From positions 1 to 11,488 of the forward strand of contig JAFQKZ010000038.1 of assembly GCA_017414725.1 (NCBI GenBank): a DNA stretch of 11,488 bases. The letters run 5' to 3'. Made by a program: the position numbers and the translations under genes. The stretch comes from Clostridia bacterium (lineage in GTDB: Bacteria > Bacillota > Clostridia > Oscillospirales > Acutalibacteraceae). The notes beneath the pieces were generated by a model. That model worked only from the letters and a program-made list of their open reading frames with translations. It was not told where the DNA came from and searched no databases. Positions 5,692 to 11,293 of the stretch are shown here, piece by piece. How positions within the stretch are numbered: the stretch's first letter is position 1; each line of letters opens with the position of its first letter.

Positions 5692-6351
5692 TCAATTTCT
5701 AGATCTTGCGATAGTACAACAAGTCACGCTATTCGCATTATGATTTAACAAAATTTTAACGCATTCCAGAAGTGTATTTCCGCTAGTCGTAATATCATCG
5801 CAAAGCAAAATATTTTTATTTTGAATATTTACATCGGAATTTATATCAAAAGCGCCTAAAACATTAACAGTTCTTTCGCTTAATTTTAATTCGTGTTGAG
5901 TTTTAGTATTTTTGATTTTTCTAAGTGCGTTCAGACATGGAATATGAAGTATTTTGGAAATATCTTTTGCCAAAAGTTCTGCTTGATTAAAACCACGAAT
6001 ATTTTGACGACTTTTGGTAAGTGGCACATAACATATGTAATCAAAATTCTTGATATTGATTTTTTGTAGCTCGCTCGCAATAATTTTCGCAAAAAATTCT
6101 GAATAATACTTGTAATTATGGAACTTAAATCTACGAATAGAATTTCTGATATTTCCAAAATATTCAAATGGAGATATGCAAATTATATTATTTTGGTGAT
6201 TCAAAACTCTAATTTTTGTATTTATTTTCAAATTCTTGCTACAATAATCACACAAAAATTCATCGGGTTTAATTATGATTTTATTACATAAGTAGCATTT
6301 TCTTGGATAAACAAAATCTATAATTTTGTTCAAAAATTTCTTTAACCACAT
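5692..6351 (-). CDS. comF: ComF family protein (phosphoribosyltransferase-like)
   Basis: This 219-residue protein belongs to the ComF/GntX family, linked to DNA uptake in naturally competent bacteria. An N-terminal zinc-finger-like motif uses Cys19, Cys22, Cys34 and Cys37 (CYLC and CDYC). The phosphoribosyltransferase fold follows, with the RGFNQAELLAK stretch (119-129) typical of ComF and the PRPP-loop motif LLCDDITTSGNT (182-193). The length is normal. The start overlaps the end of the S41 homologue by 10 bases and has no binding site of its own, so translation is probably coupled. It is the last gene of the minus-strand operon. Whether it acts in DNA uptake cannot be judged here because no other competence gene is present. 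Confidence 0.92.
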   Translation of the reverse strand: MWLKKFLNKIIDFVYPRKCYLCNKIIIKPDEFLCDYCSKNLKINTKIRVLNHQNNIICISPFEYFGNIRNSIRRFKFHNYKYYSEFFAKIIASELQKINIKNFDYICYVPLTKSRQNIRGFNQAELLAKDISKILHIPCLNALRKIKNTKTQHELKLSERTVNVLGAFDINSDVNIQNKNILLCDDITTSGNTLLECVKILLNHNANSVTCCTIARSRN

Positions 6352-7286
6352 AACAAATTCAATGCAATTTCAAGATGCTCATCGTCAGAATACACTAAAT
6401 CTCCGGTTTCGTATAATTTTTTGTGTTCATCATTCATAATAAAACTTTCGTCAGGATTTAAGCCTATACCATAAAAATTATTTTCTTTTGAAGTTACGTA
6501 TATGGCATCCGGAAAAATCAACATATGATCCCCGGATATTTCGGTGGTTTTTAGTCGAACTGCACAACCAACGCTTTGCTCTCCGACAAGCTTAGCGTCT
6601 AAATCATCACGTAATCCGGATGCTAAAACTTCAGACGCACCCTCAGTATTATTATTTATTAGCACCACGAATTTTAAATTATTAATTTCGGTTTCGCTGT
6701 GAGATTCACATGCAACCTCTTTTGTACCGTCTTTTAGAATACTGTAGACCAAATTCCCTGACGGCACTAAAAATTTCAAAATCTTGAAAACTTCGTCAAT
6801 TTCACCATTTTGGTTATTTCTTAAATCTATAATTATGTTAAAAATGTCATTGTTTCGCAGCGAATTTACAGATTTTATGAACTCGTCGCCGGAATTTTTA
6901 CCCAATGTCGAGCACTTTATATAACCCGTATTGTTAATTATTTCTGAAATAATTTTGTTGTGATTGTTTTTTCTATCAAAAATATACTTTTCGTAATTCT
7001 CACGCGTAAATAACCGACAATTTTTGTTGTTTACACCATTAATATATCCCGTATATAAATTACTTAAAATCGAAGATTCCTGAACGCTGTCTATATATTC
7101 GTTACGAATTATATAGTCAATTTCGCTCAAATCACCATACATTTTTTGCTTTTCTTGTGCATAAGATACTAAATTATTAAATTTGTTCAAAGAGATTTTA
7201 TATGCCAACGCGTACATTATAGAAGCTATCAGAAAAGTTATCACAAGTGATGTTCCTAACGAGATTTTCTTGCTAAACAAATTCAT
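6342..7286 (-). CDS. Degenerate S41 (C-terminal processing peptidase) homologue, probably inactive
   Basis: This 314-residue protein has an N-terminal membrane anchor (about 10-31) and an S41 fold outside the cell. The stretch from IDYIIRNEYID to RLFTRENYEKY matches the N-terminal helical part of CtpA/CtpB proteins. The frame then runs directly into GYIKCSTLGKN, so the PDZ domain is missing. IIIDLRNNQNGEIDE matches the family LDLRNNPGG segment. Aligned to the usual TASASE motif, the nucleophile Ser position is Gly216 (in NNTEGASE). The catalytic Lys, 25 residues on, is Cys241 (GEQSVGCA), and the Gln four further is Leu245. I start at the ATG at 7286 because GGAGGAG lies seven bases upstream; an ATG at 7313 adds nine residues but lacks a site. 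Its place after ftsEX and the hydrolase resembles the ctpB position in Bacillus. Confidence 0.85.
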   Translation of the reverse strand: MNLFSKKISLGTSLVITFLIASIMYALAYKISLNKFNNLVSYAQEKQKMYGDLSEIDYIIRNEYIDSVQESSILSNLYTGYINGVNNKNCRLFTRENYEKYIFDRKNNHNKIISEIINNTGYIKCSTLGKNSGDEFIKSVNSLRNNDIFNIIIDLRNNQNGEIDEVFKILKFLVPSGNLVYSILKDGTKEVACESHSETEINNLKFVVLINNNTEGASEVLASGLRDDLDAKLVGEQSVGCAVRLKTTEISGDHMLIFPDAIYVTSKENNFYGIGLNPDESFIMNDEHKKLYETGDLVYSDDEHLEIALNLLCG

Positions 7287-7313
7287 ACAAAATCTCCTCC
7301 AAATTTCCCACAT

Positions 7314-8648
7314 TTATCCGGCTATAGAAGTTTTTTGTGAATTTTTATTTGTAATCGGTTCAACCGGTTCGGGATTTTTAATGCTAACTTCCGGTTTTTT
7401 TACTTTTTTGGAACCGGGTACATTTACATAAGCCAGCGGATCTTTTCTTATGTTATCTATTCTTACTTCGAAATGCAAGTGGGGTCCTGTCGAAAATCCT
7501 GTACTACCAACGTTTCCAATAGTCTGACCCTTGGTTACTTTCTGACCTTTGGAAACCGAAACTACGCTAAGATGGCCGTACAGAGTCGAAATCTTATTGC
7601 CATGTGCAATCATGACATACTTTCCGTAACCGCCGCCACCTTGGCCGTTTGCGTCAACCACGGAATTTACAGCTATGACAGTTCCGGCGGTCACAGCTAC
7701 AACAGGGGCACCGTACACTCCTGCTCCGGCAATGTCTAGACCGTTGTGAGGACGAGTTCTGTTGGTTTTCTCGCCAAAATACGAAGTTATTTTACTGTAA
7801 CCAGGCACCGGCCACACAAAATTACTTGTGTCAACCACAGGCTCAACATAATTTTTGTTTTTCCGGCGTTCTTCCTCGATTCTGCGACGCTCTTCTTCAT
7901 AATATTTCGTGATTTCAGCGTTTAATTTGCGAATCGCACTATCGTTTTCGTCAATTTCTTTCTGAAACTGTTTCTGAGTTTTCTCGTACTCTGATAATAA
8001 TTTTTCGCTTTCTTCAAATAATTTCTGTAACTCTGCACGACTGGCCTCAGACTTTTTAAGCTCAGCTTTTTCATGTTCTTTAATCTCAAGAACGCGATTC
8101 TGCTTAGTTTCGAGACTGCCGATGTACTCTTTTAAGCTGTCTATGAGTTCTTTTATGGTACCGCTGACGGACCGTACAATATCGGCCTTGTCAAGGAAAT
8201 CATTGAAGTCTTTTGCGCCAAGAATAATATCAATAGCCATCGTGTCACCGGCAACATAAATAGAAACCAGCGCTTCTTTCAATAATTCAATTTTCTCTTT
8301 AATGATTTGTTTAGTTTCTTCGATTTGAATCTCAAGCTCACGGATCTGCGAACTCAACTCTGATATGTACACATTTGTTTCATCAATTTCTTTTTTTACA
8401 TGTGCAATTTTATTGTCTATGTCAAGCTTGTTTTTCTTCTCATCTTTGATATTTTTTACCGTGTTTCTGATATCTTTAATTTTTTCTTTGTTTTGTTTTA
8501 TGAGTTCGTTTTGTTTCTGTTTGTATTCTACTATATTATCTTTTGTAATGTTAACCGAAACTGTACTCGGACTCATTATGGTCGAACACAAGCAAATCAG
8601 CAAACTTGTACAAATTTGCTTGTCTATATATTTGTTGTTTTTATACAA
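7314..8648 (-). CDS. M23 (LytM) murein hydrolase with coiled coils, FtsEX partner
   Basis: This secreted protein (444 residues) should cut peptidoglycan cross-bridges under FtsEX control, like EnvC, CwlO or PcsB in role. A signal peptide (hydrophobic ICTSLLICLCSTIM) is followed by long Lys/Glu-rich coiled coils (about 35-265). An M23 domain (about 278-407) and a Lys/Pro-rich tail follow. The zinc and catalytic residues are complete: His301 and Asp305 (HNGLD), His359 (YGHLS), His390 and His392 (HLH). It is therefore probably an active hydrolase, not an activator such as EnvC. The TTG at 8648 is preceded by AGAAGGTG at good spacing. A GTG at 8657 would add three residues but has that site right against it. 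It overlaps ftsX by 8 bases with the TTG, 17 with the GTG. Confidence 0.92.
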   Translation of the reverse strand: MYKNNKYIDKQICTSLLICLCSTIMSPSTVSVNITKDNIVEYKQKQNELIKQNKEKIKDIRNTVKNIKDEKKNKLDIDNKIAHVKKEIDETNVYISELSSQIRELEIQIEETKQIIKEKIELLKEALVSIYVAGDTMAIDIILGAKDFNDFLDKADIVRSVSGTIKELIDSLKEYIGSLETKQNRVLEIKEHEKAELKKSEASRAELQKLFEESEKLLSEYEKTQKQFQKEIDENDSAIRKLNAEITKYYEEERRRIEEERRKNKNYVEPVVDTSNFVWPVPGYSKITSYFGEKTNRTRPHNGLDIAGAGVYGAPVVAVTAGTVIAVNSVVDANGQGGGGYGKYVMIAHGNKISTLYGHLSVVSVSKGQKVTKGQTIGNVGSTGFSTGPHLHFEVRIDNIRKDPLAYVNVPGSKKVKKPEVSIKNPEPVEPITNKNSQKTSIAG

Positions 8649-9537
8649 TGCTGACACCTTCTTTTTTCAGATATCTCCTGATAGATACCAGGCCTCCGAG
8701 AATCCCTATGAAAACGCCTGCAATTGAAAAATATTTCAGAACTTCCCAGAAAATATTTCTCGTATAAAATCCCTGAAAGCTGATAATACCGCCCAAAACA
8801 TCTATAAAACTTTTGTAAATAATATCTAAAATCACACTCGAAACTATAGCTGATAACAGGCCTATGACCACGCCTTCGACAATAAACGGAGTACATATAA
8901 ACATATTTGTCGCACCGACAGATTTCATGATACTGATCTCAAGGCGTCTATTGTGAATGGTCAATTTAATAGTATTTGAAATAATAAATATTGACACGAT
9001 CGCCAGTGCGCAAACCGTCCATAGTCCAGCAGTACTTATCAATCTGTTTAATTCTGAAAGCCGTCTGGCGGTTTCGCTCCTGTCACTCACAGATTCTACA
9101 TTTTTGATACTTTCAAGCTTCTTTACAGTCTGGTCATATAACGAAAAATCTTCCATACTAACGTGAAAAGCTTCCGGGAACGGATTGCCGGATTCTTGCA
9201 AAATCTCGTATAAATCTCCCAGGACTTCTTTATATTGGGCAGATGCTTGATCACTTGAGTAATATTCGCATTTTATTACATTAGGAACTTGCTTGATTTG
9301 CTCTTCTATTTGTGCTATTTCAACAGAATTGGTTTTTTTTGTTAAAAACACTTTTACGCTATTTTGATGTTCAACAGACTTTAAAGCACGTGTTAAATTT
9401 GTGGATAACAATATCGCGCTTCCTGTTAATATCATGCAACAAACCATGACTATAATCGAAGCCAAAGACATGATGTTATTCGCCCAAACGTTTTTTAAAC
9501 CTTCTTTTAGGCAGTATTTTATAGACTGAAATCCCAT
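8641..9537 (-). CDS. ftsX: Cell division protein FtsX
   Basis: FtsX (298 residues) is the membrane half of the FtsEX complex, which turns ATP use in the cytoplasm into activation of murein hydrolases outside. The layout is typical: a cytoplasmic N-terminus, TM1 (about 23-46), a large outer domain (47-170) and TM2-TM4 (about 171-192, 216-242 and 268-287). The outer domain holds the conserved NPFPEAFHV (118-126). The cytoplasmic loop after TM2 carries ISIMKSVGAT (201-210), the family coupling segment that contacts FtsE. The ATG follows the ftsE stop codon with no spacing, and its binding site GGAGG lies inside the end of ftsE. The 3' end overlaps the M23 hydrolase gene, so the three are tightly coupled. 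Confidence 0.96.
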   Translation of the reverse strand: MGFQSIKYCLKEGLKNVWANNIMSLASIIVMVCCMILTGSAILLSTNLTRALKSVEHQNSVKVFLTKKTNSVEIAQIEEQIKQVPNVIKCEYYSSDQASAQYKEVLGDLYEILQESGNPFPEAFHVSMEDFSLYDQTVKKLESIKNVESVSDRSETARRLSELNRLISTAGLWTVCALAIVSIFIISNTIKLTIHNRRLEISIMKSVGATNMFICTPFIVEGVVIGLLSAIVSSVILDIIYKSFIDVLGGIISFQGFYTRNIFWEVLKYFSIAGVFIGILGGLVSIRRYLKKEGVSIV

Positions 9538-10227
9538 TTAAACTACTTCCTCCGTATGTGTTAAATTATCCGTGTCGTTTCTCAGCACTCCGTTAGACAA
9601 CTCTACTACTCTGTAATTGAACATTTTTACAAGCGAAATATCATGCGTGACCATTATAATAGTCGTCCCGCACTTGTTAATATTACTCAGCAAGTTCACA
9701 ATATCATAAGACATCTCGGGGTCTATGTTTCCTGTAGGCTCGTCCGCTATTATTATGCCGGGATTATTCACGAGAGCTCTTGCCAGGCCTACTCTTTGTT
9801 TTTCGCCACCTGACAATTCACATACTTTGCTCCGAGATTTTCTGCGAAGGTCAACCAAATTCAAAACATAATCTACGCGCGACTCAATCTCCCTGGGATG
9901 AGCCCCGATTACGTGCATAGCGAAAGCTACATTATCATAGACCGTCATTTTTTCAATTAATCTAAAATCCTGAAAAACAATCCCAAGACTTCGTCTATAA
10001 TACGGGATTTTTCTTTTTGGAATATTATTCAAATTTACACCATTTACGTAAATCTTTCCGGTAGTGCAATCTTCTTCTTTAGTTAAAATTTTCAACATAG
10101 TGCTTTTCCCGGAACCCGAAGCCCCAACTACAAACAAAAATTGTCCGTCCGGTATTTTTAAATTTAAACCCTCTAGTGCTCTATTATTTTTATTATAAAC
10201 TTTAACAACGTTTCTAAATTCTATCAT
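9538..10227 (-). CDS. ftsE: Cell division ATP-binding protein FtsE
   Basis: FtsE (229 residues) is the ABC-type ATPase that drives FtsX. All motifs are present: Walker A GASGSGKST (35-43), Q-loop Gln86 (FQDFRL), signature LSGGE (138-142), Walker B IIIADE (158-163) and the switch His195 (VTHD). The FQDFRL stretch and the start MIEFRNV are characteristic of FtsE rather than of other ABC proteins. The ATG at 10227 gives the normal length, although its binding site is weak. It is the first gene of the minus-strand operon, behind a promoter at 10347-10375. Confidence 0.96.
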   Translation of the reverse strand: MIEFRNVVKVYNKNNRALEGLNLKIPDGQFLFVVGASGSGKSTMLKILTKEEDCTTGKIYVNGVNLNNIPKRKIPYYRRSLGIVFQDFRLIEKMTVYDNVAFAMHVIGAHPREIESRVDYVLNLVDLRRKSRSKVCELSGGEKQRVGLARALVNNPGIIIADEPTGNIDPEMSYDIVNLLSNINKCGTTIIMVTHDISLVKMFNYRVVELSNGVLRNDTDNLTHTEEVV

Positions 10228-10697: not shown

Positions 10698-11293
10698 ATG
10701 TCAGGATCTAAGAATAGAAAGAAAAGAACAACGACGGATACAACAACTCTAAGAATGAAGACGCTGCGCGTTGGTCGAAGAAAATAGAAGATGTAAGTAC
10801 AATTAGCTTTAAACTGAACGCCAATACACGCGATGCACTATTTACGGCTATAAAGGCTTATTTTGAGGTTTTGAAATATGCGTTTCCGAACGACATTATC
10901 CAGAGGGGAAAAAACGTTGACAAAAACTTGGTAGATAGAGCCGGTAGCTTACTAGATAACTTGGAATTAGAAACTTTACAAGGCAAAGACGAAGGGGAAA
11001 CTGTTAAGTGGTTGAACAAAGTGAATGATTTATTTACAGAGTTTGCAGAAATAAATGACAATGACGCCTCAAACAAAAAGAAGTTCGTGGGGGAGCTAAC
11101 GAAAAAATGTACAAGGTTTAATTCGTTAATGAGAATATCCCCTGCTTATATCGGTCATCAGCCTCTGTTTAAATATAAAAATGTACGCGAGGCATTTCAA
11201 AACCTCGGTAAAAATGTCGCTGCTTTCCCTAAGCTCGTGCAATATGCTATTGGCAAACTGCTCAAACCAGCTAAGGCAAAACCGCGTATATAA
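10698..11293 (+). pseudogene. Unrecognised gene with a frame change near its 5' end (broken or recoded)
   Basis: An ATG at 10698 with an excellent AAAGGGTGAT site opens a basic frame (begins MSGSKNRKKR) that stops at TAG 10785-10787. A second register, open from 10718 with no ATG, GTG or TTG before 10871, continues to the stop at 11291-11293. It is Lys/Asn-rich, then mainly helical-looking, with segments such as STISFKLNANTRDALF, IIQRGKNVDKNL and KFVGELTKKCTRFNS, and a basic end (KLLKPAKAKPRI). Joining the two needs a net -1 shift and gives about 198 residues. Two AAAA runs, 10722-10725 and 10781-10784, are candidate sites; the second lies right before the TAG. No signal peptide, membrane segment or known motif is visible. 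A TTG at 10871 would give 140 residues but has a poor binding site. A one-base deletion, a sequencing error or programmed frameshifting could explain it. I do not recognise the family. Confidence 0.6.

Follow-up and report, generated by a model that had tools for sequence, protein, structure and literature searches.

Judging by the residues at its active site, the S41 gene in the ftsEX operon of the window (the whole stretch of DNA analysed, 11,488 nucleotides in length) encodes a conserved pseudoprotease that is unable to cut by the Ser-Lys mechanism. In its relatives, a group of uncultured gut Clostridia, the catalytic serine was lost, nearly always to glycine, and some lineages also lost the substrate-recognition (PDZ) domain; the protein was kept nonetheless, which suggests a membrane-anchored regulator or scaffold. 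A more specific form of this reading, to which we give about an even chance, is that the membrane-anchored pseudoprotease would act on the FtsEX/M23 complex as an adaptor without catalysis. The features of the locus are listed in Table 1.

Table 1. Features of the ftsEX-linked S41 locus in the window.
Feature	Position	Strand	Remark
S41 pseudoprotease gene	6342..7286	-	open frame, 314 aa, ATG start
GGAGG ribosome-binding site of the S41 gene	7296..7300	-	9 nt 5' of the ATG
Residues 10-62 of the S41 protein, predicted helix, transmembrane then juxtamembrane anchor	7101..7259	-	
Residues 105-118, location of the PDZ domain in PDZ-bearing kin	6933..6974	-	linker comparison
Residues 119-280, S41 core	6447..6932	-	PF03572 match
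Gly216 (GGT), nucleophile position	6639..6641	-	alignment
Cys241 (TGT), catalytic Lys position	6564..6566	-	alignment
Leu245 (CTA), catalytic Gln position	6552..6554	-	alignment
M23 hydrolase, PcsB-type coiled coil	7314..8657	-	HNGLD, YGHL and GPHLHF motifs intact
ftsX with extracellular domain	8641..9537	-	profile match
ftsE (ABC ATPase)	9538..10227	-	Pfam
comFC-like phosphoribosyltransferase	5692..6351	-	10-nt overlap with the S41 gene

The match to PF03572 was significant (E 3.3e-24; 85.8 bits against a cut-off of 24), and it was the only one that the Pfam scan reported in the protein, which revealed no PDZ domain. The TIGR00225 (CTP) score was 80.3 bits, below the NCBIfam cut-off of 218.6. 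In the alignments, the CTP columns for Ser, Lys and Gln are occupied by Gly216, Cys241 and Leu245, and the CTP triad is accordingly lacking. The published triads are Ser302-Lys327-Gln331 for CtpA and Ser309-Lys334-Gln338 for CtpB, with spacings of 25 and 4 as reported (PMC8764530); the three window residues keep these spacings exactly. A family profile built from 16 sequences matched CtpB (4c2e) with an E value of 8.4e-65. The linker between the N-terminal helices and the core is 9 residues long in the window protein, which leaves it without the PDZ domain of the CTPs. Linker lengths over 91 family sequences were 9-16 residues in 19 sequences and 92-123 residues in 72, so the absence of the PDZ domain is clear-cut. 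The preliminary description had reported an S41 core without a PDZ domain, the substitution of Ser, Lys and Gln at unchanged spacing, and an intact reading frame with a strong binding site; all of these points held.

An AlphaFold2 model was built from the nine same-genus sequences and was used for secondary structure only. Its mean pLDDT was 82.5, with ten-residue blocks of the core at 79-95 and a weak stretch at residues 31-90 (about 60-72). Residues 10-62 were predicted as one helix, with a pLDDT of only about 62-72 for residues 31-62. Gly216 directly precedes a helix (residues 217-229) in the model, a placement that we take to fit the nucleophile turn.

The genes of the operon follow one another on the minus strand in the order ftsE-ftsX-M23-S41-comFC, with 27 nt between the M23 stop and the S41 start; the preliminary description had likewise put the S41 gene in the ftsEX operon. 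The arrangement extends well beyond the window: an M23 ORF lies at most 900 nt upstream of the S41 gene on the same strand in 86 of the 91 family sequences, and comFC also adjoins S41 in the eight other copies from the genus. The 864-kb genome bin to which the window belongs (150 contigs, 91.8% complete) has no PF03572 match besides this S41 gene. In four loci (L039, L148, L124 and L121) the S41 gene is preceded by two or three M23 ORFs in tandem. An ORF of 140 aa without a Pfam match is located upstream of ftsE, at positions 10871-11293 of the plus strand of the window.

The genus sample comprised 11 genomes, nine of which have the S41 gene (window included); two genus-relative genomes were assembled from goat gut. 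All nine copies are stop-free, lack the PDZ domain, and carry Gly216 at the nucleophile site. In the two genomes without a match, the contig breaks off within the M23 gene or right after it; the S41 gene is thus present in all nine genus loci in which its site is assembled. The alignment of close homologues that the preliminary description had proposed found Gly216 conserved and Cys241 not: the residues at the Lys site of the nine copies are C, N, K, N, N, N, T, S, and N. A one-off decaying gene is ruled out, because Gly216 occurs in every genus copy.

Selection was measured within the genus, using NG86 on 14 pairs. In four close pairs (L032, L033 and L036 make up three of these) the dN/dS of the S41 gene was 0.09-0.12 at a dS of 1.2-1.6, similar to the 0.08-0.11 calculated for comFC in close genus pairs. 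The closest pair of the window (with L034) had a dN/dS of 0.18 at a dS of 2.4, and for five of the other nine pairs dS was not computable. Stop-free frames throughout and dN/dS values near 0.1 in the close pairs are not those of a pseudogene; on these sequence comparisons, the S41 gene in the genus is under purifying selection. The earlier proposal of a pseudo-protease, as opposed to a decaying protease gene, is in line with these values.

Two further observations were made in the genus. Cys193 (window 6708-6710) and Lys246 (6549-6551) are invariant in the nine copies and variable in the wider family. Three same-genus genomes (G005, G008 and G006) contain a second, different S41 gene (L045, L046 and L047, respectively; 495-695 aa from stop to stop) that has Ser at the aligned position without the Lys/Gln pattern.

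A match to S41 was found in 235 of the 398 family genomes searched and in none of the remaining 163. The survey of the site used 91 sequences from the family and 22 from the order; these were hand-picked from ranked lists, not drawn at random, and represent many but not all genera, each with at least one sequence. Six sequences of another kind (L045, L046, L047, L154, L166 and L167; all with Ser, none behind M23) were excluded before counting. The nucleophile position of the 91 family sequences is occupied by Gly in 64, Ser in 25, and Ala in 2. Thirteen different residues occur at the Lys site of the 66 non-Ser sequences (N 23, K 8, R 7, V 7, H 5, Y 4, I 3, S 3, T 2, and C, D, E and L once each), and the Gln site holds Q in 37 and other residues in 29. 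Both Lys and Gln are found in 24 of the 25 Ser sequences; L139 has Asn in place of Lys. This lone Ser copy (L139 3854-5089) falls inside a Gly clade and is perhaps a reversion or a remnant. The PDZ domain is missing from 19 of the 66 non-Ser sequences and from none of the 25 Ser sequences (Fisher p 0.0012, a test that ignores kinship). At the order level, 19 of the 22 sequences have Ser, two Gly, and one Lys.

By a hand count in these incomplete bins, the non-Ser copy is the only PF03572 match in 61 of its 66 genomes. Ten family genomes without S41 were inspected: six keep ftsE-ftsX-M23 with no S41 gene within about 10 kb, and the other four had no FtsX_ECD match. The S41 gene is dispensable in these relatives.

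We also compared 28 loci from f25, another family of the same order. These all stem from the top of a ranking against the pseudo profile, as far as it was listed, and the counts among these listed matches (Ser 10, Gly 9, Cys 8, Asn 1) are shares of the sample and not frequencies. The Cys loci include four duplicate pairs, each counted once (L213/L248, L219/L249, L223/L246 and L227/L247); L224, which has Ser-Lys-Gln, was left out of the comparison. All 20 loci with flanks have an M23 or FtsX ORF upstream, on the same strand and within about 0.9 kb; the remaining eight were read as the gene without its flanks. In L230, L238, L240 and L245-L249 the nucleophile is replaced by Cys, Lys and Gln are kept, and the S41 gene stands behind M23, with motifs such as GCAAE..GKSAIQ and ACVAE..GKSELQ. 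These Cys-Lys-Gln proteins could be CTP proteases that naturally use a thiol. Genus g177 includes both Cys and Gly forms, and in L241 Asn takes the place of the nucleophile while Lys and Gln remain.

Phylogenies were used to count the losses. The S41 tree (113 sequences) required four changes for the Ser/non-Ser label and four for the PDZ domain; the tree from FtsE plus FtsX (89 sequences) required six and two, respectively. The AU tests are weakened by the fact that their groups were defined once the trees were known; with this limit, a single PDZ-less clade (17 sequences) was rejected (p 6e-5), and so was one non-Ser clade of both families (p 0.0018; tree of 141 sequences, 84 of them plus L139 in the clade, with the non-Ser order sequences L048, L180 and L181 left out), whereas a single non-Ser clade within family f1 that includes the Ser sequence L139 was not rejected (p 0.119). 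The f1 non-Ser sequences and L139 already form one side of a branch, whose support is 6.7. On these trees the PDZ domain was lost at least twice in the family. Because the single non-Ser clade of both families was rejected, we read the trees to mean that Ser was lost at least twice; loss followed by regain, which would also break the clade, seems less likely. The suggested order of events is that catalysis was lost first and the PDZ gate later.

The kin conserve the anchor sequence KKISLG...FNxxVxxxxERQxMY. Mean identity is a rough gauge of its conservation when the groups differ in depth; by this gauge, the mean identities of juxtamembrane helix and core are 0.51 and 0.42 in Gly clade A, 0.36 and 0.43 in clade B, and 0.48 and 0.34 in clade C (anchor/core ratios 1.21, 0.84, and 1.40), compared to 0.24 and 0.49 in Ser clade S1 and 0.30 and 0.49 in Ser clade S2 (ratios 0.50 and 0.62; S2 includes two order sequences). 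The Ser sequences from the order gave 0.17 and 0.41 (ratio 0.42), and group-by-group alignments resulted in the same pattern. The dead copies thus keep the transmembrane and juxtamembrane helix as their core relaxes. Conservation on the face of the transmembrane helix had a p of 0.0012 for clade C in one alignment; in a second alignment p was 0.035 (clade C), 0.039 (A) and 0.66 (B), and these values carry no weight here. The f25 Ser enzymes among the listed matches conserve both helix and core (0.42 and 0.44, ratio 0.95), and going further down the ranking added only three Ser sequences (ratio 0.91); this set comes from a capped list ranked by score against our own pseudo profile and may favour a conserved anchor. 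The non-Ser f25 sequences among the listed matches keep the anchor and have a looser core (0.45 and 0.38). Since Ser enzymes of f25 also conserve the anchor, it is not a mark of dead copies, and the idea that constraint shifted to the anchor after catalytic loss is weakened. Anchor and catalysis seem to have been lost separately.

These comparisons allow a broader reading, which we regard as tentative: the ftsEX-linked S41 protein of the order may have two separable jobs, with Gly-type catalysis-free septal regulators arising recurrently and some of the f25 Cys-Lys-Gln proteins acting as enzymes. The corresponding division of labour is likewise doubtful, if conceivable: the f25 Ser enzymes would do both jobs, clade S1 would have kept catalysis while its anchor drifted, and the Gly clades would have kept the anchor on a dead core.

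The same data bear on the possibility that the protein is a passive leftover, which lost catalysis, was kept through the operon or through a fold that stabilises its neighbours, and is on its way out. The family genomes that lack S41, including the six ftsEX loci checked, would agree with this, as would a core that is less conserved than in the Ser-bearing clades of the family. A leftover, however, would not be expected to retain Gly in 64 of 66 non-Ser sequences while the Lys site varies, nor to have the low dN/dS of the close genus pairs, a conserved anchor helix, and an S41 gene at every assembled genus site; we consider this explanation rather unlikely.

The neighbouring M23 hydrolase is probably active, because the four metal-site residues checked are kept in 114 of 119 M23 ORFs, and two of the five misses are pieces of ORFs. 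An apparent co-degeneration of M23 beside the dead S41 was an artefact of a strict HxGxD pattern and disappeared in the alignment. Two M23-like ORFs in ftsEX operons (L122 7055-8230 and L142 2504-3862) lack metal-site residues.

CtpA of P. aeruginosa is reported to degrade M23 hydrolases, and the dead CtpA-S302A copurifies with its substrate MepM (PMC6050968). With the M23 hydrolase probably active, a dead CtpA that binds MepM, and PDZ-less copies found only among non-Ser sequences, we infer an adaptor. Its transmembrane and juxtamembrane helix would dock the S41 protein on the FtsEX/M23 wall-cutting complex, where it would bind rather than cleave the M23 hydrolase (or FtsX), hold or shield the hydrolase near FtsX, and so tune the place and time of its action; the proposal that it docks on either partner comes from operon linkage together with the literature. 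CtpB without its PDZ domain is described as constitutively active, the PDZ domain restraining the active site (PMC6686036). Loss of the PDZ domain may therefore be harmful unless catalysis is already gone, and the gate would have been shed once it was. The lack of an S41 match in 163 of 398 family genomes, and the six such genomes that keep ftsE-ftsX-M23, argue against an adaptor. The eight non-Ser copies that retain Lys and the 37 that retain Gln also count against the overall explanation, as do the anchor conserved in f25 Ser enzymes, the dN/dS of 0.18 in the window's closest pair and the weak stretch of the model.

Instead of a protein partner, a lipid or wall precursor could bind to the S41 scaffold, as small ligands do in IRBP/RBP3, which is reported to carry them without catalytic residues (PMC11750400). 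In IRBP, the residue aligned with the nucleophile is Gly in modules 1 and 4, Thr in module 2 and Ser in module 3. The best single IRBP module scored 39 bits, however, against 82 for a bacterial CtpA, and the linkage to ftsEX and M23 points to a protein partner; ligand binding is improbable. IRBP was rejected as the closest kin, since its rank as top whole-sequence PDB match arises from summing four modules.

That the protein remains catalytic through a different nucleophile or base (Thr214, Ser218, Lys246, or Cys241 in the window) is very improbable: the f25 Cys-Lys-Gln sites could be active, Lys246 is invariant in the genus, and Thr214 occurs in 97% of non-Ser sequences, but Thr214 also occurs in 74% of Ser sequences, the NPGG-loop residues 158 and 160 fall from 97% in Ser sequences to 45% and 18% in the window's clade, and neither residue named in the preliminary description as a possible substitute is conserved, Ser218 being present in only two of nine genus copies and the window copy having the only Cys at the Lys site among the 66 non-Ser family sequences.

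S41 proteases have a known role in the control of wall hydrolases, which they exert by destroying these enzymes (PMC6050968). In the ftsEX-linked S41 proteins cutting appears to have stopped more than once with the protein kept, which offers a natural test of whether such proteins regulate the wall machinery through binding in addition to proteolysis, and natural Ser, Cys and Gly variants are available for comparison. In open-access titles and the opening lines of abstracts we found no description of an inactive S41 protein beside ftsEX, and the available portions of PMC3608642, PMC8498115, PMC7668044 and PMC11627006 describe no S41 gene in that location.

Compared to known systems, the window protein resembles CtpB of Bacillus subtilis and other CTPs in its N-terminal helices, S41 core, and the spacing of the active-site columns; it differs in the replacement of Ser, Lys and Gln and in the absence of the PDZ domain. 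With CtpA-S302A of Pseudomonas aeruginosa it shares the connection of a dead S41 protein with an M23 hydrolase. The CtpA variant, however, is an engineered Ser to Ala change that keeps the PDZ domain and Lys and works with LbcA, whereas the window's clade, characterised here by sequence, has a natural Ser to Gly change and no PDZ domain. IRBP (retinol-binding protein 3) is likewise an S41 fold without protease residues, with Gly in two of its four modules, and is described as a case in which this fold has become a binding protein (PMC11750400, PMC10450429); it differs in being a vertebrate protein of four modules that transports retinoids and fatty acids (PMC11750400). EnvC of E. coli is similar as a non-catalytic, peptidase-like activator in the FtsEX pathway, according to PMC7668044. 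In EnvC, however, the dead domain is of the M23/LytM fold, whereas here the metal site of the M23 hydrolase is intact and the S41 protein is the dead one.
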